Of a stretch of 64,000 bases of DNA, positions 5,530 to 64,000 are shown piece by piece. Source of the DNA: Opeltia flavorubescens (lineage: Eukaryota; Ascomycota; Lecanoromycetes; Teloschistales; Teloschistaceae); assembly GCA_000442125.1 (NCBI GenBank), contig KE546978.1, forward strand, positions 1,054,001 to 1,118,000, given 5' to 3'. Every line of letters starts with the position of its first letter. Position 1 is the stretch's first letter. Position numbers and translations under genes: made by a program. The notes beneath the pieces were generated by a model that did no database searches, was not told where the DNA came from, and saw nothing but the letters and a program-made list of their open reading frames with translations.

Positions 5530-6933
5530 TCACCTGATCTCCGACTCCTCGTTTTGCCTATCCATTTCAGACTCCCTCAGCCACCTACAAAGCTGATCTC
5601 CCCACACCGGTCTTCGTTTGTATATTCCAAACTTCTCGGGCATAGAATCACACGCGTCGGCCAGCGCAGGTCCATTACCTTCCTCCTTGATTTCTTTAAT
5701 CGGCGTCAGATAGCTGCGCACGCAGAACATGACTGCTTTTGTCTTTGGCAAACAGGTCAAAGTGTGGTGTTCGCAGCGCAAATAGGCTCTTTCCAAGTCG
5801 ATGACCTCCTTCTCAACCACCAGACTCGGAGGAAGATTCGGATCGCCTGTATTCTTGGCAAGGGGCCGGAACAACTCGTCACCGTCGGTTTGAATGCTCC
5901 ACTATGTCGATCAAGGAGATCAGCGAAATCGCAAGCCATTGATCTTGGAGTAGCGCTTGCTCACGTTCAAGCGGCCAATGAACGTTCCTGGTTCCATACA
6001 TCTGAAATACCGATCTACTCCATTGCCCAATCTGCTTTGATATCCCGGCACCGGCTTGTGGATCTCTCGCACTGAAGAACCCAATGTGGAAGAACTGAGT
6101 AGGCCCTGTGGAAAGCAGGAACTGAAAGCTTGAAGTCGATATTCACCATCTCCATCAGGACACATGAAGTAGAAATCTTCCTCCATGTTCTCCGCAAGCA
6201 CATTGAGCATGTACTTCTCGTCCAAACGTTGGGCGTCAATCAAGTATCTACTACTGGTGACGTGGTTGGTGAAGATGTTGCCCTTGATGGAGAACATATT
6301 GGGGAACCGCTTTGGTAAGTGATGAATCATCGTTTCTTCATACAGCTCTAATATGGCAGGTCGAGATCCTGGATTACTGCCAATGCAGTATTGCTGCTCA
6401 TTCTTGAGTAAGAATCTACGGTAGTTGATACATTCCAGATAATTCCGGTCAATCTTGATCCACTCATTGCGTGATACTTGTGACAGTCCCATCTTGACAT
6501 GACCTTTGCTGCGGAATGGCCGATACTTCTCGGGTTTCACATTGCGATAATCGAAATCTTTGAGTGGTTCAATGATATTGGAATCCTTCGGTGGTCGTGG
6601 AAGGCAACGGGGTTCCGAAAACTCGGATTTCGACTCCTGATATCTTCGAAGAGCGCACGACCCGATTGAGAATCTGCGCTGATCCAATACCTGGATACAG
6701 TATCGAGAAACATACCAGATGATAAATACTAGGCTCCATACGAGAACAGCCGGGAGGGAAAGATCGGTAATCCTTGTGTGAAGGGGCACATGCCGGATAT
6801 AAATCGAAGGAAATGGAATCGCCGGGGAGATAGAATACATCACTGACTCTTTGTCGAACATGAAGATATGAAATACGGAACGTATGCTGATGTATGAAGA
6901 ATCACAATATCCTTTATAAGATTTGGGTTTCAT
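5530..6933 (-). CDS. DUF3445 heme-dependent oxidative N-demethylase-like protein, membrane-anchored
   Basis: Model: exon 1 6933..5965, exon 2 5901..5530, 446 residues. The intron (63 nt) has donor GTGAGC and acceptor ATAG, and joining gives RLNWSIQTDGDEL, the conserved family junction. Residues about 55-80 form one hydrophobic segment (LPAVLVWSLVFIIWYVSRY), so the protein is probably anchored in a membrane. The DUF3445 domain follows: PFRSKGHVKMGLSQV, EWIKIDRNYLECI, YLPKRFP-like HHLPKRFPNMF, and near the end YLRCEHHTLTCLPKTKAVMF and VRSYLTPI. The family (PF11927) includes a subunit of a bacterial heme-dependent oxidative N-demethylase; fungal members have no settled substrate. The extreme N-terminus is uncertain: a second ATG, starting MFDKES, lies 24 codons downstream. 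Confidence 0.8.
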
Positions 6934-8886
6934 CTAAAGGATTGCCATAGTAGTACCATTGCAGATCGTGGCGCCACTGAAAGCCGAAGGTGCCTATCCA
7001 CGCGAGAGACGGAGTCATGCTCCCTATTCATGCCTTTATGGAATAAACTACCTCCGCATCTCAACATACCTAATTGAGTTATGAAAGATTCTGAATGGTT
7101 CGATAGGATTCAACAAATCGACTTTGTCTACCGAAGTTTGCAGTGCTTATAAAATCACCGCCAAATCTCGTTTCCGCCCATTGGTGCTGGAAAAACATGC
7201 GCAGCCGGATAATAGTCAGCTTGAGGAGCTGCCAGCTTCAGCAATTCGTGCTGGATAGCCGCTGTACTAGGTCGAGGCAAAGACCATGAAGTCATCCAGT
7301 GAAGGGAACGTGGTATTGAAGCGAGTTTCCATGGCAGCAAAAGAGCTGGTCGGGAAAGCTCTGCGAATGATCCAGACCGGTCTTCGACGTGACATTACAC
7401 ATGTATTGTTCACAGTTGTTGACCTCCCAGATAAGCTTAGATCCTACCGGTATAGCGTCCAGCCTATGCTTCTATCAGTATCTTTCCCGATGTTGTGTCG
7501 CAGCAGCCATGATGACGACCGTGGTGTCACACATATGATTCTCAAGCTTGCATCCACTGGTATCCACGCGATCTCGTAACATCTTTTGAACAGATTAGCC
7601 CGGTGGCTTCATACACGATAAATCTGGAGTATTTGAATCCATTGGAACCCATACATGTACCAGATTGAAATGTGGAAGTTGACTCGACGGATGCTAGCGG
7701 AACGAGCTGCACAGCATCGAGTCGGTTGGTCCCGCCGATGACAGATTGATCGCAACAGCTGGCGAGGTTGACTCGAAAAAATGTTGGAGATACCTCGTCA
7801 TGGAGATAGGCGCGAGTTTTAGTAATCGATGATGGTCCCTCGCGGCATCGTACCATCGATTCGAGAAGCTCAAAAGTTTAGTCTTGTCATGTGTAAGATT
7901 CACGCGGAGCTCAACATCGAATATTTGCTATGATGTAAATCGTACTGCGTACGTACATAGGAAATTTCGTCGGCTACAGTGCTGACAGAAATATATGTGG
8001 GCCGGACAAGTAGGCCGATGTGGTCACCGTAAGGTCAGGTCCGTGCGGTTACATCCGTAATCCAAGCCAGAAGTAGTCAACCGACGTCAAGTTTCGAATG
8101 GTAAAAGAATGTCGGCACGTCAGAATCCTCGCATGCCCTGAGCGTGTTAGACCAGTCAATATCTATATGGCGCTTTGCATCTGCTGCAAGCCGTATCCAA
8201 CGGGAATATGCAGGAACGATATCCCATCCAGAATTGGAGTCCAGAACTCGCCTCGTATTTAAATCGATACACTGCTCGTGTGAGATTCGGAGGTGATTAT
8301 GGTCTTCCCGAATGCCGAGCTTAACAACCTGAGCGATTGCACAGATTCAATATTGCCATTGAATGGGCTGTCGATCCGTAGCATTGCGTTCCAACCTGTA
8401 CCAGCGCTGTAGCATTCGGTTTGGGGAAGTAATTTAAGGTAAAGATCTTCCAATCCCTAACAGCGACGCCATGCATAGTGTTAGGCTTTTCATTTCCATG
8501 ACTTTTTCAGAATAGGCATGTAGCGATGTAAATGACTTGTCAGACTAAGGACACGCTGGTTGCACTCGGACTTCCCGAAAACGCCAGAATGCTCTCCATC
8601 TCAGGTACCAGCTTCTTCTCCAGTGTTGCATGGAATCGCATTCGGCGGTACTGTGCCACCTCTGACCTAAACAGTGAACCCGATCAAAACTTGTCCAGAG
8701 TCAAAAATTTAATTATGGTGCCGGCTTTGAGAAGTCTCATGATGGATCATTGATCGCTGATTCTATCCGTCGACTTTCGTCAGCTTTCGAGTAGCATTGC
8801 AATAACGTGATGAGCGTCTTCTTGTTCTCAACGCCCATTTCACCGTAGAATAGGTCGTAATTAGCAGCTCAATTCCGGCAAGATCA
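6934..8886. other. Long intergenic region 6934-8886
   Basis: Nearly 2 kb between two minus-strand genes. Only short frames in every direction (under about 105 codons), none with a recognisable domain or convincing splice partners. It may hold a decayed gene or a non-coding RNA, but I can support neither. Confidence 0.45.
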
Positions 8887-39724: not shown

Positions 39725-40427
39725 ATCACGTGCAAATCTATAAAACGCGTGGAATAAAAGCCGGTCCCTTCATCCGAACTCCTCTATCGTTTGGTACTTC
39801 CATGGTACGGGATCTTGGAAAGTCCGATCACCTTAGTCTAGACGGTCTCAAGCCTCGTGCACGGTGTCCCATGTGCGCTGAATAACGCCACGATCAACGC
39901 CGAGAACCAGTAGATGGTATCTCAAATCTCGCCGCATCTAACCCAGCAATGAAAGTAATGTTGAAGGGAGCTGCTCGATCGTACCCAGTGTGATCTTATC
40001 TGCACCGTCTCCACACTCAGGGGACTAGTCATCTTACCTGATCTCGAATGCTCTACTGTTTCGCATTCAAAGACCCGTGGTGTTGCAGCACTGGCTAGGC
40101 CATACTTGATTTCATCATCACGTCCACCGATCTTAGTTACCAGGATCATGTTGTTCTAGTTACTGGGAATCTGTACCCTTGAATGGATGAAGTGTAGAAG
40201 GAACATGTGATCGATGGTATTCCTTTGCCAGGCATCCTTCACCTCCTGAGCCTTGTTTTCGTCCGAGTCATGATCGGAAGATCAATAAGATCGTACCTGC
40301 CGCTTCTCACAAGTGATATATGCTCCTTCCTTGCCATCCAGTGCTGACTCGCAGGTGCGATCAATAGAGACGATCCTTTCCTTTATTTTTTGTCTTCAAA
40401 CTTACTTTCAATCTGATTACCGTGAAG
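39725..40427. other. Intergenic region 39725-40427
   Basis: Promoter region of the P450 gene. No other gene supported. Confidence 0.5.
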
Positions 40428-42173
40428 ATGTTCCCTTCCAGTCCTGCGACTGATCTGTCAAAATCTAATCAAATGCTCTTGGTTGCCCTAGTCTGCTATG
40501 CCGTCTACTATGCTTACTGGCAGTTTATGTTTGGAGTCCAACGACGTCGTTTGATCAAGAAATACGGCTGTAAGCCAGTTAACGAAAACTCGGAACTCAA
40601 TTCGTGGAAAGACGCCTTCATCGGATGGACACAAATTGTGGCCAACGAGAAAGCACGGAAACAGCGGAGACTACTTGAATACTTCAGGGGAAGGTTCCTT
40701 CGACATGGAAATACTATACATTTCAAGGTTGCCTTTGACGACATTTACTTCACCGCCGAGCCCAGCAATGTAAAGGCTATGCTCGCAACCAATTTCAAGG
40801 ATTGGCAAATGTCTTCTCGCAGAACAACCGCCCTTGCTCCCCTCCTCGGACACGGAATCTTCACAGTAGACGGAGCGGACTGGCAGCATTCTAGAGACTT
40901 GCTGAGACCCAATTTTACCCGCAACCTCGTCGCTGACTTTGTCACCTTCGAAAGACATATCGGACATCTTATTCAATCCATACCTCGAGACGGATCGACG
41001 ATTGATCTGCAAGAGCTATTCTTTATGCTCACTATGGATTCCGCGACGGAGTTTCTATTTGGCGAAAGCACAAACTGTCTTGCTCCTGGCGCTTCGACAG
41101 ACGACGCAAAGAATTTTGCCAACGCCTTCAGTCGCTCGCAAGATGCAGCAGCTAGGGCCGGACGGAATTTTCCTCTCTTGGTGAAGCTATTCCCGAGTTC
41201 GGCTTCCAGAAAGGACATCGAATACGTGCACAGCTTCGTGGACCGCTACGTGCAACATGGACTTGAATGGCAGAAGAAGCAGGACATTGAGAAATCCGCA
41301 TCCAAAGGCGCTGAACGCTATGTTTTCCTATACGAATTTGTCAAGAACACCCAAGACCCCGTCCGCATTCGGTCAGAGCTCCTCAACGTTCTACTAGCAG
41401 GCCGTGACACGACTGCCAGCCTGCTCGGGAACGTGTTCTTCGAGTTGGCCAGAAGACCAGACATCTGGATGAAACTTCGGAAAGAGGTGGATAGATTGGA
41501 TGGCAAGCATCCCAGCTTTGAAGAGATCAAAAACATGAAATACTTACGATATGTTTTGAATGAGGGTAACACACCACCTCCCAGCCTGCTGCTTGGTTCA
41601 TTTCCATACCAGGCTCTGACACGTAATATAGCACTTCGCCTTTACCCTATCGTCCCGTATAATTCACGCATGGCCATCACCGACACCGTCCTGCCCTTAG
41701 GCGGTGGGCCCGATGGTAAATCCCCCATTTTGGTGCCCGCAGGTCGAACAGTCGGTTGGCTTCTCCATACTATTCATCGTCGCCAAGACATTTACGGTGA
41801 AGATGCAGAACTCTTCAGACCAGAGCGATGGGAGACTTTGAGGCCAGGATGGGAGTTCCTACCATTCAATGGTGGGCCTCGGATATGCATTGGCCGTAAG
41901 TAATCTTTCCATCTACCACCTCTTCATACACGTGATCCTGTCTACTACTTTCATTTCATATACATACTTGCTTTACTCAGACAACATTAGCTGATTAATT
42001 TTGTCTTGGTGGGTTTTGTAGAGCAATTCGCTCTCACCGAGGCATCTTACACGACTATACGCTTGATGCAGGCATTCAAAGATATTGAGAGCCGTGATAC
42101 GGAACCATGGACGGAGATGCTTGCCCTTACTTGTGCAACTCAGGCGACGAAGGTCGTTTTGACGCCTGCTTGA
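40428..42173 (+). CDS. CYP52-type cytochrome P450 (alkane/fatty-acid hydroxylase-like)
   Basis: Model: exons 40428..41565, 41632..41895, 42022..42173; 517 residues. The start is the ATG at 40428. An N-terminal membrane anchor is at about 15-35 (LLVALVCYAVYYAYWQFMFG). The I-helix reads LLAGRDTTASLL, the ExxR motif is rebuilt across intron 1 (E379 to R382), and the heme loop FNGGPRICIGQQFAL with Cys465 is split by intron 2 right after the glycine. These features are typical of CYP52-like fungal P450s, which sit in the endoplasmic reticulum and hydroxylate the ends of alkanes and fatty acids with help from CPR. The exact subfamily needs a tree. All parts look intact. Confidence 0.9.
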
Positions 42174-42456
42174 TAGTACCGGAGGAATAATTCGCGAAGA
42201 GATGAATCAAAGTGATGCTTGCTACATCTTGCTTCTAGAAACATATCTTCATAGATAGTACAGACAATCGAAAAAGAGCTTGAGTCTGCTACAAATCGCC
42301 TGAGTTCACCCTGATATCTCGATTGTGAACTGGTGCTCTTCCTATAGGCGTAGGATGACGTCACATCTCTTCGCTTGTTACCTCTGTTTTGCCGATACTC
42401 GTAAAGTAAACATCTCCAGCTCAGCGACCAGTGTATCATATGAATACTTCGATACA

Positions 42457-43758
42457 ATGGAGCCAGGTGTAGCAGTCGCGGCATACGGGGCCGAGACAGT
42501 TGCAGAAGGTACAATTGGAGCTGCAGTGGCCATTGCGAAACCTACAATGCCTTTGAAAGCTACATGGAGGCGGCTCGTCACAACTAAACCCTTGTTAAGA
42601 TCATCCCATTCCCTTTCAGTGATTAAGGGAAAGGCATATATATTTGATGGAGTAGAGCAATCTGGTCAGGCTGTTGGCAATGATGTGCATGTACTAACAC
42701 TACCTTCGTCTACGGTCAATGATGTCGATTATCAGGTATTCCCCGCCAAGGGAAATACGGAGGGCAACGAGGTGCCGGATCCAAGAATTGGGCATACGGC
42801 TGCTGTTGTGAATGATAGAATTTATGTCTATGGTGGTCGAGGTGGGGATTCGACGGAAGCTCTAGATGAGAAAGGAGCGGTTTGGGAATATGATGATAAG
42901 ATGGCTTATTGGACTCGATTGGATCCTGTCAAGGGGTCTCAATACCCGGAAGCTCGTTATAACCATTCTTCGACGTCTACGGTTCATCCTTTACCGAGTC
43001 GTGAAGATCATACTGAAGCTGGTTTTGGGGACGTGGATCCTGAAGCTCATGGAACGATCTTCGTTCACGGTGGCTGCGCCGCTTCTGGCCGATTGAACGA
43101 CCTCTGGGGGTTCGATGTTGCCGCCCGAACGTGGTCGCCGTTTCCTGATCCTCCTGGGGAAGCCCGAGAAGGTTCAAGCCTGACGTTCACTAAGGATAGA
43201 TTGTATCTTTTCGGAGGGTTTGATGGTAATGTACAGTTCGGAGGGCAGATCGATTACCTGGATCTTGTCACCACGACTTTCAACGACCAGAGCGGAAAAG
43301 GTGAATTAGCCGTTACTTCCGCAACGGGCAAATGGCAGACAGTCACGGCAGAATCAGGTTCCCCTATGCCAGGTAATCGAAGCGTTGCTGGCTTGCACCC
43401 GGTGACAACAGGCCAAGGCCGCAACTATCTCATCCTGCTCCTTGGAGCCAAAGGTGCCGAAGGAGAATACTGGGATGATGTATGGTCGTTCCAGCTTCGT
43501 CCTGAAGGCATGACCGCAGCCAGCTTCAAGGATGCCGCAAGAGAGCTCGTTGGTGCAAAGACAGCCGAGCATACCTGGGCTCCTGTTGATATTCCTGAGT
43601 CCACCATGACAGGAGGGAAACAAGAGGCGCCAGGCAAGCTTGGATACTTTGCGAGCGCGCCAGGCCATGATCTCGATCCCAGATCGATCGTCTTATGGGG
43701 TGGAATCGGAGACGACAAGTCAAGATCGGGAGGGGGGTGGATGTTGGTTGTCGAATGA
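42457..43758 (+). CDS. Kelch-repeat beta-propeller protein
   Basis: A single-exon gene, 433 residues from the ATG at 42457; the frame continues upstream without a better start. At least five kelch-like blades are visible: SHSLSVIKGKAYIFDG, GHTAAVVNDRIYVYGGRGG, GTIFVHGGCAASGRLNDLWGF, SSLTFTKDRLYLFGGFDG and YLILLLGAKGAEGEYWDDVW. Gly-Gly doublets followed by aromatic residues mark each. No signal peptide or other domain. Kelch propellers are binding platforms; fungal stand-alone ones are often annotated as galactose-oxidase-like without catalytic residues. Role unknown. Starting close after the P450, it is in tandem, but there is no sign of linked function. Confidence 0.85.
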   Translation: MEPGVAVAAYGAETVAEGTIGAAVAIAKPTMPLKATWRRLVTTKPLLRSSHSLSVIKGKAYIFDGVEQSGQAVGNDVHVLTLPSSTVNDVDYQVFPAKGNTEGNEVPDPRIGHTAAVVNDRIYVYGGRGGDSTEALDEKGAVWEYDDKMAYWTRLDPVKGSQYPEARYNHSSTSTVHPLPSREDHTEAGFGDVDPEAHGTIFVHGGCAASGRLNDLWGFDVAARTWSPFPDPPGEAREGSSLTFTKDRLYLFGGFDGNVQFGGQIDYLDLVTTTFNDQSGKGELAVTSATGKWQTVTAESGSPMPGNRSVAGLHPVTTGQGRNYLILLLGAKGAEGEYWDDVWSFQLRPEGMTAASFKDAARELVGAKTAEHTWAPVDIPESTMTGGKQEAPGKLGYFASAPGHDLDPRSIVLWGGIGDDKSRSGGGWMLVVE

Positions 43759-48250: not shown

Positions 48251-51187
48251 ATGGAGTCGCCCTCCGTATGGGAGGATATGGACCGGTATGATTTCGGCAG
48301 AGCAGCCACGTGTGAGCTGGAGAACTAACAGATAACCAGAGCGATGGGTCAGATGTTTGTTATGGGATTTGATGGCACCGAAGTCACGCCGCAGATTCAA
48401 AGTCTGATTGAAAAGCATCACCTAGGCACTATCCTGCTGACTGCTAAGAATCTCATATGTATCTCTTCCTTTCCTATATCTGCCACTGCTCAATTTTCTT
48501 CTTACTCTTGATGCAGCTGCGGAACAAACAACCAAGTTGATCTTGGACCTTCAAACTATTGCTCATGATGCTGGTCATCCAGTGCCTCTGGGCATCTGTC
48601 TTGATCAGGAAAATGGCGGTGTCAACAGCCTATTCGATGAGAATTACATCCGACAGTTTCCCAGTTCTATGGGTGTCGCTGCCACAGGATCAACCGAAAT
48701 GGCATACGAAATTGCCAAAGCTACCGGCGAAGAACTCAGTGCTGTTGGCATCAATTGGATTATGGGACCTTGTCTCGACGTCCTCACTAACGTCAAGAAT
48801 CAGCCGCTTGGAGTCCGGAGTATGGGCGATGATCCCGAGGAAGTATCCAGGTTTGGCGTCGCCTTCATGAAAGGCTACAAGGACGCCGGACTGGCTACTT
48901 GTGGTAAGCATTTTCCCTCCTACGGCAATCTCGAATTTCTTGGATCCTTTCTCGATGTACCCATCATTACCGACTCGCTGGAGCAGCTCAGTGTGAGTGC
49001 TTTGGTACCCTTTCGAGATGCTGTCTCGCAAGGTGTAGACGGCATGTTCGTAGGAGGCTGTGCCATGTCATCTGCTGGTGTCAATGCCATGCACGCTTGT
49101 CTGTCAGAGCAGGTTGTCGACATGCTCCTGAGGGATCATCTAGGTTTTGACGGTGTAGCTATGTCGGAATGTCTCGAGATGGAGGCCCTTACTCGGAACA
49201 TAGGAGTAGGCGGAGGCACGGTCATGGCGGTCAACGCAGGATGTGATATGGTACTACTCTGTCGCTTATTCTCCGTACAGCAAGAAGCCATCAAGTACCT
49301 CAAACTGGGCTACGAGGATGGTGCGATATCAACAGAAAGGATACGCAAATCACTCAAACGGGTGCTAGATCTCAAAGCCAATTGCACCAGTTGGGAGAAG
49401 GCCTTGAATCCAGCCGGCATACCGAGTCTATCTACACTTCAGCCCTCACACAAAACGCTTTCAGCTGAAGCCTACAACGCATCGATCACCGTTGTAAGGG
49501 ACAAGGATCGATTACTGCCTTTATCCAATCTGATAAGTGCAGAAGAAGAGGTTTTGCTACTGACACCACTCGTCAAACCACTTCCAGCATCGGCGTTATC
49601 CAAAGGGCTAGCGACAGAATCTGTAATGTCTCCTGGGGCGAATACACCATGGGGTAAGAACATGTCACTGATGAGCGGTGAAAATGTGTTCCGTGAATTG
49701 GGGAGAAGTATTGCACGGAAAAGGCAGGGAAGGCTCCTTCACACGTCGTATACTGCCCATGGCGTTCGCCCATTCCACGAGAACTTGGCCAATCGAGCGA
49801 GTGCTATCATCGTGGTGACGGCGGACGCCAACCAAAATCTCTATCAGAACGGGTTCACGAAGCATGTTGCTATGATATGCAAATCTCAACTAACGCGAGG
49901 AGAACAGCGAGAGAAACCCCTAGTAGTGGTTTCCATGAGCTCGCCTTACGATTTTGCATTGGATACTTCTATTGGTACCTACATTTGTACGTACGACTTC
50001 ACCGAAACAGCGCAGAAGGCACTTGTCCACGTCTTATTTGGCGACCTGTCTCCTACAGGAAATATCCCCGGCAGTGTCAGCCAAAGTCAAAAATACCACC
50101 ATCCTAAGCAGCATTGGGTTGTGGAAAACTTTGATGAAGGACGTGATACAAAAGTGCTCGACGATCTCCTGCAAACGATTGAGCGAGAAGGGCCGGTCAA
50201 TAAACGGTCGGAGCTCTTCGGCTGTTCCTCCAAGACCTTCCTGTTGCACAATCCCGGTGTGGAGGAGGAGCATTATGTGGTGCGAAACAGCAGCACCCAG
50301 TCTTTGCTCGGATTTTGTTCTACCTACTTCTTTAAGTCAACCGCGACAGGCGTGATTGGCGCTATTCTGGTAGATCCCGACAGGAGGAAGCTCTCCATTG
50401 GGCGTTCCCTCCACACCCGGGCCATTCGCAATCTTCTTCAACGGAGTGGCATAAGGAGATTCCAGCTCGGGTCTACATTGCCGGGAGTATACTTAGGGGT
50501 ACCCACAGACGACCAACTTGAGCGGAAGCGGCTCAGGAGGTGGTTTTCCAGCATCGGTTGGAGTACCGCTTTATCCCGGCCTGTGTGTAGCATNATTCTG
50601 AAAGATCTCTCAACGTGGACTGCACCGGAGAACATCAGCCAAAGTTTTCAACACGTGGATGTTGAGTTTGATCTTGTCCACGGCATGGAGTATGCTGGGC
50701 CCATCATAGAGCACATCAAGACGAGCACAAGGCAAGGGGTTGCGGAGGTCTACCAGCTCGCGCTCGCCGATGATGTTTCCTGTGGGGTGATACGAGCCAA
50801 AAGACCATCGGATGGGACGATACTTGGTACGGTGGTGCTATGCAGCCCTGATGCTAATTGGGCGGAGGCTCTGCCAGCCTTGAAAGACACCAATGACATT
50901 ACTTGGGCCATCTCGAGTCCTATTGTTTCTCCAAGCGTTGGTGAGTATTCAACCCTACTGCAAGGTCTGATCCTGCTCGGCATTCGGCAAGTCAAAAAAC
51001 AGCAGGCGGATGCAGTACTTCTGAACCGCGTAAGTAAGAATGATATTGAGTCAAGGAAGAAGGCTGACAATCTGGGCAGGTTGATGGAGACGGCATCTCC
51101 GACAGTTTCACAGCCATGGGCTTCAGTGTACTTCATAGTTTCGAGGAAATTTCGTGTGATGCGGACAGCATGTCGATATCTAATTGA
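48251..51187 (+). CDS. nag3: GH3 beta-N-acetylglucosaminidase-like enzyme fused to tandem GNAT domains
   Basis: Model: exons 48251..48285, 48340..48458, 48517..51029, 51080..51187; 924 residues. No signal peptide, so probably intracellular. The GH3 NagZ-like barrel covers about 10-330 (AMGQMFVMGFDGTE, LGICLDQENGGVNSL, GKHFPSYGNLEFLG at 181-194, GVAMSECLEMEAL at 264-276). A second GH3-like domain follows to about 570. GNAT acetyltransferase-like segments are at about 637-720 (VDPDRRKLSIGRSLHTRAI) and 780-920. Fungal Nag3-type enzymes with this fusion occur in the GlcNAc catabolic cluster. Where bacterial NagZ has SDDL with the nucleophile Asp, this has SECL (Glu269), and the GHG..DSH acid/base loop is absent. 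The open frame beyond 51029 is read-through of the last intron. An N at 50594 affects one codon. Confidence 0.85.
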
Positions 51188-52643
51188 TAGACGACTTTGC
51201 CACTCATCAGCTTGTACGGGTATGGAGTCTCGAGTCAGGTTGGTTCGGTGGCAACGTCCAACCGGAAGGATTCGAAACACATTGCTGGCCTCGCATTGTA
51301 GGTCTATGTTTGATATTGATATGATCGGCCTTCGGCACTTGAGCAAGGAGTCCGGAGGATAAGGAAAATGGGCAATTTGGATGGTTTGGACTTCGTAATG
51401 AAAACATTAATGGACTTGCCCGGCAAATTGAGGTTTTGGGACAAGGTTATTGCGGCGTAAATCAGTTCCTAAATTTTATTGATGAACAAGAACCAGTCAT
51501 GGTCGGTCAACGTGCCAACTGAAACCCGGAAGCAAGCAGCGATCGGCAACGATTCAGTTGATGGTGTAGGAAGAACGTGTTCCTGCGACCCATCATTGCT
51601 TGTTCGTATGACCCTGACGATCTTCCCATATGCATATCTTACCTCGTACCTGCACCATCAGCATGTCTTTCCGCCGATCGTGACTCCTTGTAGCTCAATG
51701 AGGAACTTATTCCGCTCCGTCATCCAATCACCCAAGGAATTGCTGAAACACGAAGCCACAACGGCCAGAACCTTGGACTTACACTGATCGGCCCCGTATG
51801 CTTATTGATGCCGCCTATCTTCACCGATCTCGAAAAGTCAGTCTGTCCTTCCGCCGGCGAGGAACAATATCTCCCTTGCTTGAGCGGTCTGCTTTGAGCT
51901 TTGGCCTGAAGGATGGTGCCCGCCGGCCAGCGGGTCGATCTTGCTGTCATCATTTGCCGACGACGGACTCGAGGCTAAGAGCGTTGGGGAGCACTTAAAA
52001 GAGTGGTTAATGGCCGGCACCAATGGTTATAATTTGTGGCTTGAAGGACCCATCCGCTCGTTTTTTCGTCAACGGCACTTTCCAGACCCACGAACTGCAT
52101 CTTGTCCCTCCATTTGTCCCACCTTCTTCCAGACCCCAATCACTCTCGACGTCGCCCCTCTGCTGCAGCCCATACACCCCCAGTCCTCCACTAGCCCCCG
52201 ATCATTCACCTTTTTTTCCCATACAGGCCATAGAAGCGACCCCGTGCGGCTACTACTGCCAGTCAATCACGGGAATCCCCCTCCCTGCCCTATCCGTATC
52301 CGCCAGATCATCTTCCCAACATTCAATAATTCTCCAGATTCATCGCCGTCTGCCTGGCCTTGCCAAGGACTCTAAAGATGCGCCTGCCGCTCTTATAGGG
52401 CCCTCGCATCCAGATGTACCGTCAGCCATGAATCACTCGTCGTACAAAGCCTCCACCAGCTGAGGAAACATCCGGACCTTCGACTCTTCGTGCTGACCTA
52501 AGTCCACCACTGTTGATGACCGTCTCAGACGCCTCTTCTTTCTCCGGTCCGGTCAGCCTTGACCGTAATACATAATCAGCACCCTCTCGTTCCGACCCCG
52601 CATTTGTCCACCGTGACACCTCTTCAGACGACTACGACTCATA
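51188..52643. other. Long intergenic/leader region upstream of the Ndt80-like gene
   Basis: 1.46 kb. The last 600 bases are pyrimidine-rich and probably include a long 5' leader. Four short upstream reading frames lie close to the start codon (see separate entry). No other gene is supported; frames up to 146 codons here lack motifs. Confidence 0.5.
52378..52575 (+). promoter_or_regulatory. Cluster of four upstream ORFs before the Ndt80-like start
   Basis: ATG-to-stop frames at 52378-52398 (6 codons), 52414-52431 (5 codons), 52428-52463 (11 codons) and 52516-52575 (19 codons) precede the ATG at 52644. If transcription starts upstream of 52378, they should lower translation of the main frame. 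Confidence 0.5.
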
Positions 52644-54348
52644 ATGGACTATTCTGGAGGTATAAACATGCCTTCGTATTTCAGCAGCTCCATACCTGTG
52701 GGAAACGTCGATGCCGAAACCTACAGCGGCGTTTTGCCCTCACTTGGGTTGCCAGAAAACATTACTCCATCCTACGATACCAGCGATTTCACCATGTAGG
52801 TCGAGCCTCAACCACGAGGGGATATAACACTGACCTGCTGGATACTACAGACCCGACGAGATGAACTACATGCAAGGAGGACTTCCCCAAGACTCCTCGC
52901 ACTCTCAATACAATACCTATGAAGATGCATTCGGAAACGCCCTTGGCTTCATGGAAGCTATGCCGCCTGACCAGCCTGTGCCCGAGGACTCATCAATCGA
53001 CCGTGACAATAAGCTTCTCAGTTTCCAGTCTCCGACCTATAATTTCACCCTCCTCGACATTTCTCTACGACGCACCGGCGTCTCCATTACCGCTCGACTA
53101 CACGGCATGTTTTTTATGGCGGAACCACAAGAGCAAGGCCCACACAACTCTGCTACGGCACCGACAGAGTTGACATGCTACCGACGAAATCTATTCCAGA
53201 TCACAGGATCTATCACACTACCTCGCTCTCTACGGTACATCATGACGGATAATGGAGAACGAATCCCAATCATAAGTCAGGAATTATACATATCAGCGAC
53301 AGAGTCGGTCGAAGGCCACCCGGTGAAGCTGATCTCCGTTCCATGGAAAACACCTGTATCAAACAACCAAACTACACCTGAGGATAAATTAGAGAAGGAA
53401 CCAGCCCCAATTCCCCTCGATACAATGTCAAATCAAGATATGGACGCCGACTTTGCAACAGTCCCCATTGCCTGGAAACGTCTTCAATTCCGAATTGCAA
53501 CCGCCAACAACGGCCGCCGTAAAGAATTACAGCAGCATTTTGTCGTCAGACTTCAGGTTGTCGCTACCCTTGCCACAGGAGCCAGGGTCTCCATCTGTGA
53601 ATCTTGCTCCGGAGCTATCATCGTCCGAGGCCGCAGTCCCCGAAACTTCCAAGCAAGAAAAGACCTTCCAGTCGGCGCTGTTGGTGGTAGCTGCCGCCGT
53701 GCACCTGTCGCCCCACCACCTCATGTCTCCCGCAACTCCGCTGACTCCACTCACCAACTCAAGCCCGAAAAGAGCCCCGATGGCGGCCACCACGCAACCC
53801 TCGATAACCAAGAAATCTCCACACCCTCTACATTCAGCGGTTGGGGACGAAAACCCAATTCCGGATTCATGTCCAAAATGTCGACACTTCAAACACCTGC
53901 GTTTTCCCACTCATCCGCGAGATCCGCATCCGCAAGCTCATCTACACCACCACGACCCAAAGCTCTCTCACTCAGCGACTCACCGGAACGAGATCACGCC
54001 CAGCTTCCATCGTCACAACGCTCAGCAAAAGCGGCACGCATAAATTCCATGCCTAATACTTCTACTCCGACGCCTTCTCCATCTGCCCTGAATAGTATGG
54101 CGGCGCCCAACCCCCCAGCCCCGGCCTTCCTCTCTACCTCCCATGTCGACGCCGCGAACCTCCTATACGAGTACTTCCCCCTCGGGCTGGATGATTGGCA
54201 GCCTCCCGTCGATGCGGTGTACAGACCGCATGTTGTACATCACATGTCAGATGCAACGGCAGCTCAGGGAGGGGGGAAGATGGGGAGACCGAGTTTGGGG
54301 GGAAGGAATAAGAGGTATTTCAGTGAGGATGGGAGTAAAGTCGCTTGA
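52644..54348 (+). CDS. ron1: Ndt80-like (p53-fold) transcription factor, RON1/XprG/VIB-1 type
   Basis: Model: exon 1 52644..52795, exon 2 52851..54348; 549 residues. Donor GTAGGT, branch CTGACC, acceptor ACAG; the junction reads DFTIPDEMNYMQ. The Ndt80/PhoG DNA-binding domain covers about 95-330: TYNFTLLDISLRRTGVSITARLHG-like entry, ELTCYRRNLFQITGSIT, SATESVEGHPVKLISVPWKT, WKRLQFRIATANNGRRKELQ, and IIVRGRSPRNFQARKDLP. The C-terminus is Pro/Ser-rich. Family members include T. reesei RON1 (GlcNAc catabolism), A. nidulans XprG (proteases on starvation) and N. crassa VIB-1. Its place between the GH3-GNAT and hexokinase genes favours RON1, but paralogues in this family need a tree to tell apart. 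Confidence 0.88.
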
Positions 54349-55404
54349 GAATTTTGATTAAGGTCTTGATCCTTGCTTTATTCAGGAACCTCTCCAATTG
54401 GTGCTTCGGATCCTTCCGGAAGGATTTCACAACCTGGCGATGTTGGTTGGTGTTTTTTGGTGCAGGGGTTCTTTCGGATCCCTGCAGATGCAACGAGAGC
54501 TCGGTGCGTTGGATGGTGTTGTTGGCACGAACACTTTCTTATATCCTGTTGAAAGGGCCGCGAGCGTCAATGGTATTGTCGTTGCAAATCTTTCTAGCGA
54601 AATTTTTCATTGGCGCATGAGAAACAAAAGCAGAAAGTGGAGAGGCTGTATAATGATGTATGATTATGCTTGGGCATCTGTTTCGTACTTTTTTCATATC
54701 ATTCGTGGGGGGTTCTTCCGGGTCTGTTGAGGTAGTCCAGTCTTGTCTTGCAGTATCGGAGATACCTATGTTTGTTGCGGGTTGATTAGAAAATCTTATG
54801 ACGATCAATGAAAGTTTCCTTCTGCGATTAATGTCGTTCAAAGGGGCTCTAGGTGGAAGTAATAGGGGGGCAGTGATAACGAGCTAATAAAATTCAAGAG
54901 AGGAAAAGAAAGCAAAGAACTCAAGAAAAAATTATTATTTAGCAGACCAGTAAGAAAATCGGGAACTTTCCTATGGAGGAAAATATATGCATTTCACTTT
55001 TTCATCATCTAAAACATATAATGCCGAAAGATTGTGCAAGAAGAAGAAGAAGAATATGCAATAATACCGCCCGCGTTTTTCATGACATTCGTAAGCGTCT
55101 CCTTCAATATTGATATTGGAGGACGCATGCAGTTTTCGATGCCCGGAACTTTCTATCCAAGTCCATAGGTTTTGTTTGCCGATGCAATTGGTAGAAGTAA
55201 GGTTGGCCCATTAAGCAGGTAGGCCTCTGTCCCCATTACCCAGTCCAACGTATTGATTTCATCCCATTCAATCCATCCCAGGATTTTTGTCCATTGGCGT
55301 CTAGCCCTCCGACGTATCGATTCACCCACTCCATCGGGGGGGGGTTTCATTTGCGTCCAGCCCTCTGACGTATCGACTCATCACGCATACCGCTTTCTCT
55401 TTTC
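54349..55404. other. Intergenic region 54349-55404
   Basis: Convergent 3' ends of the Ndt80-like and hexokinase genes. AT-rich; a short (GAA)n run lies near 55040. The sequence gtccagccctctgacgtatcga at about 55355 nearly repeats one at about 55300. No gene seen. Confidence 0.5.
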
Positions 55405-57017
55405 CTATTTCTCCGCGTTCGCCATAGCAGCCGCAACCCCAGCCCCCAGGACTGCGCTCTCCCCCGCACTCTCTAGCACAACTCTCTTCCTGCCTGGATC
55501 CCCCATCCTCCTCATTTGGTCCAAGAGCACCTGACACTGCTGCATGTAGCATGGGTACTTATTGATGACGCTCCCATCGCATCCTATGCTAATATGGTCC
55601 AACCCATTCGCTGCCGAACCGGCTGAATCTACTTCGTGATACAAGGATGAAAGCGCATAGATGGCTGCGGTGAAGTAGCCTTCGGAACGGCGGAGGACGG
55701 CAAGTGTGACTTCTCGGATGAAGTGCATTTCTGCGGGCGTAGGAGGTGAGTCCAAGGCGTAGGTTTCCTGGAAGAGTTTGCACGAGGGGGATAGGGAGGG
55801 GTAAGTGTCCGCTTCGATGCTGGCCAGGGTACGGGTATCAAGGGAGTAAGGTTTCGACAATGCGGGTGGTAATTGACCGTCGAAAAGACCTGCGGAATCT
55901 GTGGCTTCGGCGAGGATGAGCCGGACTATTTCGCCGAGGTAACCGCCCGCTAGGAGATACTCCATGGGTTGATAGTCTGGGAGAATGTGGTGGGCGTTGA
56001 GATGCTCGTCCCAACGGGTGGTTGAATAAGCTTTCTTGCCAAACATGCTGAGTTCTGTATTGACTAGGACATGCGTGGTATTTTCTGTGGTAGGGAATTC
56101 CCGAACTCCGAACTTGGAGTGGTGTAGGGATGAGATGGGAAGGTGGATTGCGGCATTTATACCCGTGCCCAGGATGACGGCAAGGCGAGTAGAGGAATCA
56201 AGGTAGGCTCGGGAGAGGACAGCAGCAGACGAATCGTTGACGATTGCGTCAAGGCGGATGTTGAGATTCTAGGCAGACTTCGTGAGTAGTCATCAGGCGG
56301 CACTGGTTCGCCTTACATACTAGTCGTTGACATGCTTGCGTGATGAGGTCGCCAAGATCTTCGCCTTTGCAGATACTACAATGGAAACCTTTTCCCATAC
56401 CTATGATATTCCCACTGCGTATTGATGTTTGACTAGACGGGTCAATAGTCTAATATGTGTTGACGGAACAGGAATACTGACTCGATTGGAAAAGACCAGG
56501 CAATTCCCATTGGCAGCGGCTCCTTCCATTCGATGTGATCGCTTGCCGCCTTGTCCGCCAACAGCATCTCCCCAATCTTCTCGGCAATCCAGTCAAAGAA
56601 TGCAAGCCCTCTAAGATCACGGACGCGGTTGTCAATCGTAGAAGTCACAATCCGACGAATCCGTAAGCTCTGTCTGGGCTTGTCTCTTCCATAGAGGTCG
56701 ACCAAGGCGACCCGCAAAGTTGACCCACCGACTTCCAAGGCCAAATATGTACCATGTTCTTTGCCGTCGGGTAGAGTGTAGTTGTGTGAGGGCAGCATGC
56801 AGCTGGTGCTTGACTGCAGACGGTCTTTGAGTTCTGCCTGCAATTTCTTCGAAAGTGCCAGTAGATGCTCAACTCTCAACTGCTGTTCGAATAGCTCTCG
56901 CACCTCTTTCAGTAGGGTATCCATCGTTGTTTCGTAGATGGGTGTTACATGCTCGGTAGCGAGTGCCTTCGGAGTCTGGAAGTGGGGCAGTGTTGATGGG
57001 GGATGAAGGGTAATCAT
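55405..57017 (-). CDS. hxk3: Hexokinase-family kinase, N-acetylglucosamine-kinase-like (HXK3 type)
   Basis: Model: exons 57017..56482, 56432..56321, 56268..55405; 503 residues. Start is the ATG at 57017. Motifs: [17 protein letters not shown] (phosphate 1, from 92; Glu in place of the usual Asp of DLGGTN), [20 protein letters not shown] (sugar loop, rebuilt across intron 1), [13 protein letters not shown] with the catalytic Asp228, [15 protein letters not shown], and the adenosine end [13 protein letters not shown] and [17 protein letters not shown]. The sugar-contact Asp and ATP loops are kept, so it is probably an active kinase. It is divergent from glycolytic hexokinases and fits the GlcNAc kinase HXK3 or the atypical HxkC/XprF group. 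The neighbours support GlcNAc-6-phosphate formation. Confidence 0.83.
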
Positions 57018-57921
57018 CGTGAAAGTGATTCGCCAATCCGGCAATAGAGGTGAAGGCTGTAGGAGGCTAGAGAGGAGATGCGCGAAGGATGAAATATTGA
57101 AGGGTCCATTGATGTGGAAGGATGACAGGCTTTAGATAGGGAGAGTCAGAAAAGAAGGGCCGTATAGTCGGGATTGCCAGACGTGGTCCGGGTTGAGGCA
57201 ATAGGAGCTGCTACATGTCGGACATGTGGGGGGGCGATAGCTCCGTAGCGGGGCAGCTGCCGGTAATTGTCGATCAGAACCAAGGTAGAGGAGGAAAAGA
57301 CTTGTTGTTTGGTGGGCGTTGGTTGAAAAGTGAGGTAACATTGGGATCTTGAGGTAGCAGTGGGACGGGAAAGCGGCACTGGCACGCCATGGCGCGACGG
57401 GAGGCTTCCAACGGCGTGGCGATTGAGAGGTTGAAATGTCATAAAGCATGGCTAATCCCCAGTATCATGCAGCATGCTTGACTCTGATCCTTTGCTCTGG
57501 GAACACTGAATGCACCAAGGAAGAGTATGAGGGGAAGTAGTCGTGACGCGGTGTTGCCGTTACATTGACCCACTCAGCAAAAATAAGTAATATGCGAGCA
57601 GATCCCGATCATCTACCTTTTGCGCTATATTGCTATCCACGTTTCGAACAAATGATACAATGCAATAGGAAGGAGCGATAACGAGCTATGATATTGCTAT
57701 TGCTACTCCGGTATCTCATTGTAGCAGATTGCCATGAGGCACACATATCCTATTACATGCCGTTGCCCTATCAAAGCCAATATCCAGCGACGCCATCGCT
57801 TATCATACTATAGGGGGAATCTGTAAAAGCACATTTTATCGACTTCAGCAGAACGTTGAGCTCCAAGGAGGAAATTCCATGGAGGAGAGTTAAAGATCTT
57901 TCGGATTAGACCAAAACTTCT
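57018..57921. other. Intergenic region 57018-57921
   Basis: Promoter of the hexokinase gene plus the 3' end of the transporter gene (both minus strand). Minus-strand frames near 57130-57450 are short and unsupported. Confidence 0.5.
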
Positions 57922-59576
57922 TTAATGGACCTTCTCATCATGATTTTCACGGCCAAGATTCTCCTGGCCTAGGGTAGGCATGACTTCCTCGATTGTTTCA
58001 TCCGAGAATTTGATGTCTTCCTCCAAGGACACCGTATCTTTCACCTTCATTAGAATTAATGGCAAGGCGATAACCAAAGACCCTGCCAGAAGACCCCAAT
58101 TTGACGCAAATTCGTTCATATAAGGGGCCTTTAGAGCATCGACACGGAAGATGATTGATGATCCGACTGATTGGATTCCCTTGTAGAAGCCGGCAAAGTT
58201 GGCCAGCTTGCGACCATTGTTAGTCAAAGCCCCCATGAACCTGTTGAGCCGGTCAGCCAGGGATCTAAGACAGATGACCTGTCACTGCAGCTGCGGACTC
58301 ACCAATATACGCATGTCTGCCACGCTGCATCGTAAAATCCGTAGAACATGTACAGGAACATTGGCCCGACGTATCCACTCGTGGTCCAATCCATCTTCAC
58401 ATAGTCATCTGCAGACACTTCTGACCGCGTATACTGCTTCTGCCATGCATAACCACCGCCCCAGATGGCCATGGTGATGACAAACAGCACCACCCATGCA
58501 GCTTTGGCCCGGACCGAGCGTCTGAATTGAGGTAGGTCGAGTGCATATCCAAAAATATACGCCCCAATGATTTGACTGGTCCAGTACAAGACGCCATTGA
58601 GGGCCCGCGTGCGAACGTTGAATTTGGCCAAATTGACACCGTTGAACTGATAAGGGTAGAACCAATTACTGGCAAGGAACATGGGGAAGAGGAAAACGAC
58701 CCAAGTGTCAGTTTTCAGCGTCTCATACAGACCAAAAATCTCGCTCTGCCATGTGGGGTGCTTCATGAGAACAATATGGGATCCATCGGCTCGCTGTACA
58801 TGTCGGGCGTCAACCAAACACCAAGCCAAGGCGGCCCCCAAGGAGGTGAGGACAATAAATCCGATGTAGGTGCCATCATTGACGTTGCCGGCAGTGCTGT
58901 GGAGGTTCTGACCGAGTGGGATGCTGCCATCGCTTGAGCTCTGCATGGTAGTAGCGTGGAGGAATACTTACAGGCTTCCCAAAACAGCGCCTAGATTGAA
59001 GATCATCCAAAACCAGGAAATGTAACGGCCTTTGGAGGCTTCGGGGGGATACGACATCATGATGGCACCCTGGGCGGTCCAAAGCAAGCCCGCGCATGCT
59101 CCAAGCAGCGTTCCTGCAAAAATCGGAAAACCGGCATTTTGATTGTGATTGTAACTCAAGAAGCTCGCAATGTAAACCACGTAGCCCATCCCTCCGAGAG
59201 ACAAGGTTAGCTTAATACCCATGCGATTGGCGAAGGTGCCGGCGAAGAATCCTACGACGGCGAAGGTAGCGTAGAGAGCAGTGTTTGCATTGTTGGCCGT
59301 CGTAGCGTCGAGTTGACCACCTCCTCCCAGTCCGCCAAGGGCATTGAACATGCCTGGGCAGAGGAAGCATACAAAGGCCACTAGACCAAGCTGAAATGGA
59401 GGCGAGGCATAGGCTGGGATCTTAATCGGGCCAATTCGTCGAGTACGGTACATCCAAGGCTTCCCCGTAAGAGGCTCTCCTGCTTCGCCTATATTGTGTG
59501 CAGCGACGACTGGCGAATGTGGGTCAGCAGTAGTTGTCGTGGCTGACGGTTCGACTTTCTCAGTGGTTGTCGCCAT
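57922..59576 (-). CDS. UNC93-like MFS transporter, candidate GlcNAc transporter
   Basis: Model: exons 59576..58972, 58923..58303, 58240..57922; 514 residues. The acceptor GGCAG at 58926-58924 gives GAVLGSLIPLGQN, the expected family sequence; nearer AGs would insert extra residues. About eleven to twelve membrane helices, from FQLGLVAFVCFLCPGMFNAL through AGTLLGACAGLLWTAQGAI and GYVGPMFLYMFYGFYDAAWQ to NWGLLAGSLVIALPLILM, with acidic cytosolic ends. The DUF895/UNC93-like family is part of the major facilitator superfamily. Its position at the end of the GlcNAc block suggests a sugar permease (Ngt1 role). I could not compare it with Ngt1, so the substrate is inferred from context only. Confidence 0.82.
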
Positions 59577-60268: not shown

Positions 60269-61818
60269 TCATATCTTTGCGAAAACTGTAGGGACAGTAC
60301 CGCTCATATCGACTAATGTGCTCTTGTTGCGCACCCATGCCTCCAAACCCCGCCTCCCATTCTCGACCCCGACGCCGCTCTGTTTCCACCCGCCCACGCT
60401 CATCTCTGCTGGGGATTCCCCCCATGTGTTGACCCACGTTATTCCCGCTTCGAGTCTTGCGATCACCTTGTGGGCCAGATTCAGATCTTTGGTAAAGACA
60501 CCTGCTGCCAGACCAAGCGGAGTTGCATTAGCTCTAGATATGGCTTCGTCAACTCTATCGTAGGTGAGAATTGTGAGGACTGGCCCAAAGATTTCCTCTT
60601 GGACAATTTTCATCGAATCTTTGCAATCGGTGAAAATGGTCGGTTTGATCCAATAGCCGTCTTCCATCCCTTTAATACTCTCGGGCTTCTCTAAGCCGCC
60701 GTAGAGCAGTTTGGCACCGTCATTTACAATTCCATGCTTGATATACCCGAGTACTTTACGGAAGTGCATTTCGGAAACGAGAGGGCCAAAGTTGGTGCTG
60801 GAGTCCATCAAATCTCCAGGTCTTATCTGTTCCATCTTTTCCAGTAAGACTTTTTCAAATTGGTGCTTCATTTGACTTGGGACAAAAACACGGGTACCGT
60901 TTGTACAAACTTGGCCTGTGCTGAAGAAATTCGCCATCATGGCCCCATCAACAGCGTTTTCTACGTCCGCATCAGGAAGCACAAGCACCGGACTCTTGCC
61001 CCCAAGCTCCATTGTGACATATTTCATACCTCCGGCTGCGCTGCTGGCTACTTTCTGGCCAGTAGAAACTTGGCCCGTGAAGGAGACCTTGGCAATACTT
61101 GGATGGGAAGTCAGATATCCTCCAATGTCACCACCTCCGTTAATGATGTTGAAGACTCCTGGTGGGACACCGGCTTCTGTGTAGATTTGAGCAAGGATCA
61201 GGCCGTGCAATGGTGTCACTTCGCTAGGCTTGTACACCATCGTATTACCTGCGGCAAGGCAGGGTGCGGATTTCCACAGTGCTCTGTGAAATCTCTCTCA
61301 GCAGTACGATTGATTGTAGATATTGATATAGCGTACATTTGGATAGGATAATTCCATGCTCCAATCCCTGCGCATACGCCCAGCGCTTCTTTCTTCGTAT
61401 ACACCCAAGCGTCTTCTCGTAGCTGTACGGTCTCACCGTTCAAGCCTCCACCAGCTACAGTATTGGCGAAGAATTCAAGAACATCAGCTCCTGTCACGAC
61501 ATCTACCGTACTAGTTTCGGAGAATGGTTTCCCTGTATCTTGGGTCTCTGTTCGCGCAATCTCATCATTTCGCTCTCGGAGGAGCTGTACCGCTCTGAGA
61601 AGGATCCGAGATCGAACTACTAGCGGTGTTTTTGACCACGAAGGGAAAGCTTTTCGAGCCGACTCAATGGCAGAATCAACATCAGGTTGCGAGGCTGCAT
61701 GAATATCTGCTAATGGTTGAGCTGTCGATGGATCAATCGATCTGAAGACAGATCCGGACGCCATTTGGATCCTGCCATCGTAGTAGAGATGACGTGGAGG
61801 GTAGAAAGCTTCGGTCAT
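60269..61818 (-). CDS. Betaine-aldehyde-dehydrogenase-like aldehyde dehydrogenase
   Basis: Model: exon 1 61818..61337, exon 2 61283..60269; 498 residues. The 53-nt intron (GTACGC..ACAG) restores [19 protein letters not shown]. The NAD-fold and active site are intact: [24 protein letters not shown], catalytic Glu in [11 protein letters not shown], catalytic Cys in [25 protein letters not shown] and [24 protein letters not shown]. The IFGPVL and the CTNGTRVF form is typical of betaine-aldehyde and aminoaldehyde dehydrogenases. It oxidises betaine aldehyde to glycine betaine with NAD(P)+. It faces a choline-oxidising GMC enzyme across a shared promoter, which supports the choline pathway. Confidence 0.9.
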
Positions 61819-62366
61819 TGTCACGAGTAAAGCTCGAAAAACGAATGTTCGAAAAAAAAAGATCCTACGTGGTGGGCGAGCTTATAACGCTAGGTGATTT
61901 GTTCCAAGATCTGGCATAAATACTTATCTAACCGCATTGAATCGGATCCAGGAACCTCACACCACGATGCGATTCACTGCCTGGAGCGAGTCTACCAAGA
62001 ATTCTGACTGCCGCCGAAATCGGATTCGGAGAAGCTGTCCGGGTTTTGATGGGAATCTGCTTATTTGTCGACTTCAACTAAGCCAGAAGGATGTTTCCCC
62101 ACATAAGCTACACTCAGCCTAAAACAAGCGGTAAAACGGTATATTTTGACCTCAAAGTTGCTCACCAAGACTCTTAATCCTATACATATGTAGGGCAGAC
62201 TAAGTTCTCTCGTAACTGTTACGTTCTCACGCGTCGATTCATCTGTCTTCGATCTTTAGATCAAATCTTCCACACACAATTTCTTATCAAGCTGTCCTAA
62301 CAAGGCTCTCTCACCGATACTGTTTCTGTTTGCAAGGTCTTACCATCTTCCAAAAAAAATCTGACC
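61819..62366. promoter_or_regulatory. Shared divergent promoter of the choline-oxidation gene pair
   Basis: 548 bp between the head-to-head aldehyde dehydrogenase and GMC genes. On the minus strand a TTATAAG box lies about 60 bases before the dehydrogenase ATG (around 61880). No other gene seen. Confidence 0.55.
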
Positions 62367-64000
62367 ATGACTACTACACAGCTCTCCGCTACTGATGCTG
62401 ATACTTTCGATTACCTCATTGTTGGAGGTGGAACAGCAGGTTGTGTCATTGCAAGTAGGCTGGCTGAATACCTACCGCATAAGAGGACGTTGCTGGTTGA
62501 AGCGGGTCCGAGTGACTTCATGAACGACAAGGTATTGAACTTGAAGGAATGGCTTACTCTACTGGGGGGTGAATTGGACTATGATTACGGAACGACAGAG
62601 CAGCCAAACGGCAAGTAACATAGCCGGGGCCCATTGAGGGCGTCCCATCGATCACGAAGACTGCCAGGTTAATGTCAGAATCTAGGCAACTCTCACATTC
62701 GGCACTCAAGGGCTAAAGTCCTTGGGGGGTGCTCCTCTCATAATACACTGATATCCTTCAGACCTTTCGAGTACGATTGCCGACGATGGGAGTCTTTAGG
62801 ATGCACGGGTTGGTCGTTTCCAATGTTCACACGGATATTGGACAGTCTGCGGAACACAGTACAGCCGGTCCATTCTCGACACCGGAACCAGCTCTGTAAA
62901 GACTGGGTTCAGTCTTGCTCCTCAGCTCTTGGCATCCCTGTTATCCATGATTTCAATCAGGAGATAAGAAAAACAGGATCATTGCAGGAAGGTGTCGGAT
63001 TCTTCTCGGTTTCATATAATCCGGATGATGGCCGCCGGAGCAGCGCAAGCGTGGCCTATATTCATCCCATATTGCGTGGGGACGAGAAGCGACCGAACCT
63101 GACAATCTTGACCGATGCCTGGGTGAACAAAGTGAACGTATCTGAGAATTCTGTCACGGGCGTCAATATGAGGTTGCAATCCGGGCAAAATCTGACAATA
63201 AAGCCAAAGATCGAGACCGTCCTCTGTGCGGGCGCAGTTGATACGCCTCGACTGCTCCTCTATTCAGGCATAGGCCCACGTAATCAGCTAGAGGGCCTTG
63301 ATATCCCTGTCGTTCGAGATATACCTGGTATCGGTTACAACTTACTGGATCACCCTGAGTCAATCATTATGTGGGAGCTCAATCAGCCCGTTCCCCCGAA
63401 TCAGACTACCATGGATAGCGATGCCGGGATATTCTTGCGTCGGGAGCCACGCAGTGACAGCGACAATTCAGCCGATATCATGATGCATTGTTACCAAATC
63501 CCATTTTGCCTAAACACCGCCAGGTTGGGTTATGATACGCCAATAGATGCTTTCTGCATGACTCCCAACATTCCCCGGCCTCGTTCAAAAGGGCAATTAT
63601 ATCTCACCAGCAAGGACCAAAATGTCAAGCCTGCTCTAGATTTCAAGTACTTTACGGATCCTGATGGCTATGATGCGGCTACCATCGTCGCTGGCTTTAA
63701 AGCTGCTCGGGTTGTCGCACAACAGGAGCCATTCAAATCCTGGATTAAACGTGAAGTGGCCCCTGGCCCGGAAGTGACTTCAGATGAAGCTTTGAGCGAG
63801 TATGGTCGGAAGGTCGCACACACTGTATACCATCCGGCGGGAACAACCAAGATGGGAAACCTTGAGAAGGATAAGATGGCGGTAGTAGATCCCGAACTCC
63901 GGCTGAGGGGGCTGAAAAGGGTCAGAATTGCGGATGCAGGTGTCTTCCCAGAGATGCCAACAATCAACCCTATGTTGACAGTTCTGAGTATTGGAGAGAG
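62367..64000 (+). CDS. GMC oxidoreductase, choline oxidase/dehydrogenase-like (cut at window end)
   Basis: Model: exon 1 62367..62610, exon 2 62686 to beyond 64000. The frame is open to the last base, so only the final few dozen residues are missing. The intron is of the GC-AG type (donor GCAAGT). FAD fold: YLIVGGGTAGCVIASRLAE and LLVEAGPSD at the start; HIRHSRAKVLGGCSSHNTLI gives the GMC signature 1; VLCAGAVDTPRLLLYSGIGP is signature 2. The catalytic His is in VYHPAGTTKMG and the partner Asn in TINPMLTV. Choline oxidases and dehydrogenases of this family turn choline into betaine aldehyde, the substrate of the divergent neighbour. Other alcohol substrates remain possible. Confidence 0.88.

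Follow-up and report, generated by a model that had tools for sequence, protein, structure and literature searches.

The window examined here, 64,000 nucleotides of the lichen fungus Opeltia flavorubescens (Lecanoromycetes, Teloschistaceae; contig KE546978.1, hereafter C14, C14:1054001-1118000, in an assembly of 34.4 Mb and 23 contigs), holds at 48251-59576 four open, intron-bearing genes that encode a GH3-GNAT protein, an Ndt80-like factor, a hexokinase and an UNC-93-type membrane protein. We propose, with a probability of roughly 55%, that the locus represents the half of the ancestral Pezizomycotina N-acetylglucosamine (GlcNAc) locus that held the regulators and the kinase, and that its circuit senses and salvages a cell-wall sugar rather than feeding the cell. 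On our best reading, the GlcNAc circuit has moved from catabolism to sensing and to a presumed salvage into uridine diphosphate GlcNAc (UDP-GlcNAc). The GH3-GNAT and Ndt80-family genes lie on the plus strand and the hexokinase-like and UNC-93-type genes on the minus strand; all four spliced models, with GT-AG introns picked by eye, are free of internal stops. The ngs1/nag3, ron1 and hxk3-type genes are physically linked as three neighbours within 48251-57017, the name hxk3 being taken from position and paralogy. A first-pass annotation had read these genes as a partial GlcNAc cluster. The four adjacent genes are indeed present, with domains above the Pfam cut-offs, and the locus does have the form of the fungal GlcNAc cluster, incomplete and rearranged, while several of the wordings used for it do not hold, as described below.

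The GH3-GNAT gene (48251-51187, plus strand; exons 48251-48285, 48340-48458, 48517-51029 and 51080-51187) encodes 924 residues, one ambiguous base being translated as X, and both the GH3 N-terminal domain (169.4 bits) and the GNAT domain (25.3 bits) exceed their Pfam cut-offs. The protein matches the solved GH3-GNAT enzyme of Rhizomucor miehei, 4zm6, at 2.6e-95, and in this alignment the GlcNAc-binding residues D81, R152 and K182-H183 are conserved. By contrast, G-S-F stands in place of the D-S-H of 4zm6 and E269 in place of the nucleophile D. A comparable pattern, G-S-N together with E282, is reported for TrNGS1 of Trichoderma reesei, which is argued in the excerpts of PMC12176254 to be a sensor and not a hydrolase. 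In Candida albicans Ngs1, D74, R145 and K175-H176 are described as required for GlcNAc signalling (PMC5063960, in part); their counterparts here were assigned by motif and via 4zm6 and not by direct alignment to CaNgs1. The predicted GNAT domain, a putative histone acetyltransferase, keeps the motif V and, ten residues further, the G, aligned with the V and G of 4zm6 and separated by the same interval as V685 and G695 in TrNGS1 (as given in the excerpted source). The predicted protein thus has the residues of an NGS1 sensor, with the binding D, R and KH kept, whereas both the D-S-H triad of the hydrolase and its nucleophile D are replaced. An active N-acetylglucosaminidase was considered and rejected on the replaced catalytic residues. 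The earlier label of a Nag3-type protein is therefore correct as to the GH3-GNAT architecture, but the protein is best named NGS1-like, since the binding residues are kept and those of the hydrolase are lost.

The adjacent Ndt80-like gene (52644-54348, plus strand; exons 52644-52795 and 52851-54348) encodes 549 residues with an NDT80_PhoG domain (PF05224) at 132.6 bits, above the Pfam cut-off, and is one of three PF05224 genes found in the genome. A protein search scored 7995 candidates, 1747 of them at E <= 0.001. Among the 120 matches listed, the best named one is from Gyalolechia fulgens (80%), a member of the Teloschistaceae in the Lecanoromycetes, and further top matches come from metagenome-assembled genomes named Loekoesia, Blastenia, Caloplaca and alike. 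We take these genera to belong to the Teloschistaceae as well, so that the head of the list would be largely that family. In a tree of 17 sequences, made up of the three genomic genes plus 14 sequences picked from the 120 listed matches of the window protein, that protein groups with sequences of lichen fungi inside a group that holds Onygenales PacG/VIB-1 and acid phosphatase entries, whereas the two other genomic genes, both on long branches, fall outside this PacG/XprG-type group (split support 100/99). The notion that all three genomic genes are of one type is thereby rejected. As the other members are all matches of the window protein itself, the tree does no more than single out, among the three genes, the one of the PacG/XprG type. 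The excerpts of PMC4950302 treat RON1 and XprG as orthologues and restrict the VIB-1 clade to Sordariomycetes and Leotiomycetes, on which ground we set a VIB-1 identity aside and assign the predicted factor to the RON1/XprG type. The first-pass annotation had opposed RON1 to XprG; the type survives, but the contrast does not, and a grouping with XprG and not RON1 is an ill-posed test that cannot discriminate between orthologues.

The third gene (55405-57017, minus strand; exons 57017-56482, 56432-56321 and 56268-55405) encodes a hexokinase-like kinase of 503 residues, with Hexokinase_1 (PF00349, 90.8 bits) and Hexokinase_2 (PF03727, 182.7 bits) domains on two exons, both above the Pfam cut-offs. 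Three Hexokinase_2 genes were found in the genome, and the window gene lies furthest from the family model (182.7 bits versus 285.8 and 268.6 bits); judged by its sequence, it is a paralogue distinct from the glycolytic hexokinases. Compared with mammalian hexokinase, seven of the eight positions that we take to represent the sugar site are kept (S175, K193, N227, D228, N254, E288 and E319), the eighth, the T of a T-K pair, being G192. By position and paralogy the kinase is probably HXK3/HxkC, with HxkD as the alternative, and GlcNAc is its predicted substrate by analogy, Kappel and co-workers having argued that HXK3/HxkC phosphorylates GlcNAc (PMC4950302, in part). A different view of the locus follows from Aspergillus nidulans, where, according to the excerpts of PMC3821154, HxkC and HxkD are non-catalytic and genetic evidence makes them negative regulators of XprG. 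Given also the orthology of XprG and RON1, the genes could belong to an XprG-type starvation regulon, in which the hexokinase would be a non-catalytic regulator and GlcNAc not the main signal. We consider this improbable, as both the sugar site of the hexokinase, at the seven positions above, and the GlcNAc-binding residues of the GH3-GNAT protein are kept.

The fourth gene (57922-59576, minus strand; exons 59576-58972, 58923-58303 and 58240-57922) encodes a membrane protein of 514 residues, which after splicing scores above cut-off with both MFS_1 (39.8 bits) and UNC-93 (36.1 bits); no second PF05978 gene was found in the genome.

The remaining catabolic genes, dac1 and dam1, had been noted as missing from the 64 kb, and this holds for both: dac1 lies on contig C2, and 160 PF01182 proteins give five matches at E <= 1 in the window, all at chance level (E 0.24 to 1.0), so that a decayed dam1 at this site is also rejected. 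At C2:1365353-1366878, dac1 was matched in three pieces by a bacterial profile, the best at 73.5 bits and none above the family cut-off. When spliced, it yields 426 residues with the motifs HCEGPF, GHSAA, THVFNAM and ITDS, and nagA (TIGR00221) is its best model at 205.6 bits, just below a cut-off of 225.65 that was set for prokaryotes. Head-to-head with dac1, less than 1 kb apart (C2 ~1365300-1370000), stands an acetyl-CoA synthetase gene, whose first exon scores 604.7 bits with TIGR02188 (below the cut-off of 724.95). A functional pair is plausible because Dac1 releases acetate, which the synthetase would recapture. The synthetase gene is in turn adjoined by one for an ADAM-type metalloprotease that carries reprolysin and disintegrin domains (4885-7299 of the fetched C2 stretch).

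For dam1, five search routes agree in finding no gene. The deaminase profile TIGR00502 returns no candidate from the genome; with E. coli NagB as query a single match appears, at chance level (E 0.85), and with the deaminase of Xylona heveae there is none at E <= 10. The motifs FNMDEY and HIAFNEPG are conserved without exception in an alignment of 14 fungal deaminases drawn from 120 listed matches, and DNA patterns that encode them are likewise without a hit in the genome. The single PF01182 gene found was rejected as dam1, since it scores as a 6-phosphogluconolactonase (184.6 bits, cut-off 124.45). The cluster had been called rearranged or split, which fits dac1 on its separate contig, but not dam1, which was found nowhere else in the assembly. 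The three-step route to fructose-6-phosphate thus appears incomplete, its third enzyme not having been found in an assembly that contains N stretches and was searched by best candidates. An unrelated enzyme might deaminate instead, such that GlcNAc catabolism still works; the genes for kinase, deacetylase, sensor and factor all keep open reading frames, as continued catabolism would predict. Nevertheless, among the SIS-type alternatives NagB-II and GlmD, the ones sought, no replacement emerges: one SIS gene was found, and its best models are those of glutamine-fructose-6-phosphate transaminase, to which a partial frame scores 349 and 334.5 bits (cut-offs 381 and 418), whereas NagB-II reaches just 48.4 bits (cut-off 430). 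The gene is thus glmS/Gfa1-like and was rejected as a deaminase. We give such a non-orthologous replacement little credence.

Taken together, these genes allow the following course to be proposed for a sensing and salvage circuit. GlcNAc would be freed by GH20 enzymes, two hexosaminidase genes of this family being found at C2:159696-160721 and C12:1426484-1427539, and would be imported by the UNC-93-type candidate or another transporter. In the C12 gene the frame that was matched contains one TAG, possibly owing to an intron. Intracellular GlcNAc would then act via NGS1, brought to promoters by the RON1/Rep1 factor; this step is modelled on C. albicans, where GlcNAc is reported to bind Ngs1, Rep1 to recruit Ngs1 to promoters and genes to be induced, with parallel evidence from T. 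reesei (excerpts of PMC5063960 and PMC12176254). The window kinase would produce GlcNAc-6-phosphate, which together with glucosamine-6-phosphate may pass to UDP-GlcNAc for chitin and glycans. Without the deaminase, carbon would be barred from glycolysis by the known route, and would therefore flow to UDP-GlcNAc, an option also discussed by Kappel and co-workers (PMC4950302, in part).

Several points weigh against this proposal. The genome search proceeds exon by exon and scores best candidates only, so that an empty result not backed by a positive control shows nothing, and some genome stretches read N (among them the starts of C2 and C7). The controls are indirect, namely the dac1 pieces, the 6-phosphogluconolactonase and the SIS gene, all of which the same search recovered. 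Loss of dam1 is, moreover, costly elsewhere: in the excerpts of PMC4950302, its deletion in T. reesei basically abolishes growth on GlcNAc, and deaminase loss in C. albicans lets GlcNAc inhibit growth on other sugars. Judging from these phenotypes, it could do harm to keep the kinase and the deacetylase once the deaminase is gone. The subsequent salvage steps, by GNA1, AGM1 and UAP1, are assumed. The UNC-93-type protein is a candidate GlcNAc transporter by its MFS/UNC-93 domain, and a literature search for a tie between NGT1 and UNC-93 proteins, or between UNC93 and N-acetylglucosamine transport, returned none. A test for shared promoter motifs was also negative. The Ndt80-type site CRCAAAW is absent from five of six, the GH3-GNAT gene having two copies at its 5' side versus 0.29 expected, and no 7-mer is common to at least four of five promoters, versus a mean of 2.9 in 200 random sets.

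The limits of the search bear directly on whether the pathway is complete and ordinary after all, dam1 having been missed through an assembly gap, an N stretch or exons too short for a six-frame search. In samples of 400 bases, telomere repeats are present at 36 of the 46 contig ends and at both ends of 14 of the 23 contigs, C14 included. Of the 23 contig starts, 19 carry three or more CCCTAA units, two lack repeats and another two read N, and 17 of the 23 contig ends carry at least four TTAGGG units, with a short stretch on C12 and no repeats on five. For ten ends a telomere is accordingly not demonstrated (seven lack repeats, C12 has its short stretch and two read N), and an intron within a motif would have hidden dam1 from the DNA patterns. 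Against this stand the agreement of the five search routes and the recovery of the control genes, and we regard a missed dam1 as unlikely.

If the proposed shift to sensing and salvage is correct, it may extend beyond this species, although the evidence for this amounts to hints. Two protein searches with deaminase queries, the first of them made up, scored 8000 and 7998 candidates, and among the 120 matches listed for each, many of them unnamed, no recognised Lecanoromycete name appears, whereas the listed Ndt80 matches would open largely with Teloschistaceae. The second search lists Chaenotheca (Coniocybomycetes), Bathelium (Dothideomycetes) and Pyrenula (Eurotiomycetes), genera that presumably include lichen formers. 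Because these are the best 120 matches per search and many are unnamed, a lineage-wide loss is only hinted at. No literature on lichen fungi without glucosamine-6-phosphate deaminase was found, as judged by title, and the lichen genome papers searched by term do not mention glucosamine, deaminase, amino sugar or GlcNAc in their main text. It is a tentative thought that the Teloschistaceae, perhaps all Lecanoromycetes, lost the deaminase and rewired a GlcNAc food pathway to sensing and chitin salvage as a mark of life on algal carbon.

Adjoining the membrane protein gene are two divergent genes of choline-oxidation type. One, on the minus strand (60269-61819; PF00171 in two frames, at least two exons, unspliced and with approximate start), encodes a betaine-aldehyde-dehydrogenase-like (badA-like) aldehyde dehydrogenase; its best NCBIfam model is betaine-aldehyde dehydrogenase, to which the 3' exon by itself scores 501 bits, below the 593-bit cut-off. 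The other, on the plus strand (62367-64000; PF00732 and PF05199, unspliced and with approximate start), runs past the window end and encodes a GMC oxidoreductase that resembles choline dehydrogenase/oxidase, its best models being choline dehydrogenases at 238 and 211 bits, far below the cut-offs of 605 and 732. These neighbours had been taken to stand downstream instead of the missing cluster genes. Their presence is borne out, but not the replacement, since in Aspergillus fumigatus, according to the excerpts of PMC12584764, a GMC oxidoreductase (AFUB_083470) and badA (083480) follow dacA (AFUB_083460) and precede a deaminase (083490), a beta-N-acetylglucosaminidase (083500) and ronA (083510). 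The same source terms dacA, nagA and ronA non-clustered, yet the locus tags span six consecutive numbers. The linkage therefore looks old, and on the two loci compared it is probably common to Eurotiomycetes and Lecanoromycetes. Upstream of the cluster, at 40368-41903, lies a gene for a cytochrome P450, followed at 42304-43758 by one with Kelch repeats. On C14, ~6 to 7.4 kb past the window, two small adjacent CxC-rich frames lie on the minus strand (6034-6594 and 7056-7391 of the flanking stretch), which look metallothionein-like by eye.

GlcNAc serves fungi as a carbon source, as a building block of the wall and as a signal. If our proposal is true, a natural lineage separates GlcNAc sensing and salvage from feeding, having sensor, factor, kinase and deacetylase without the deaminase. 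For lichen nutrition, this poses the concrete question of whether chitin sugar is food for the mycobiont or is merely recycled. With the GlcNAc cluster of T. reesei (hxk3, dac1, dam1, nag3/ngs1 and ron1, with ngt1 unlinked), the locus shares the clustering of the GH3-GNAT, Ndt80-like and hexokinase genes and the presence of dac1 in the genome; it differs in that dac1 is unlinked, dam1 was not found, and UNC-93-type and choline-oxidation-type genes adjoin. With the A. fumigatus stretch AFUB_083460-AFUB_083510 it shares a beta-N-acetylglucosaminidase-type gene beside ronA and a GMC oxidoreductase and badA nearby. That stretch, however, contains dacA and the deaminase, the latter not found in the lichen fungus, where the hexokinase and UNC-93 genes instead lie between the factor and badA. 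C. albicans has all three catabolic enzymes and known GlcNAc sensing, whereas sensing in the lichen fungus is predicted. As in the Rep1-Ngs1 system of C. albicans, a GH3-GNAT protein has kept its binding residues and lost those of the hydrolase, and here its gene is linked to that of an Ndt80-family factor.

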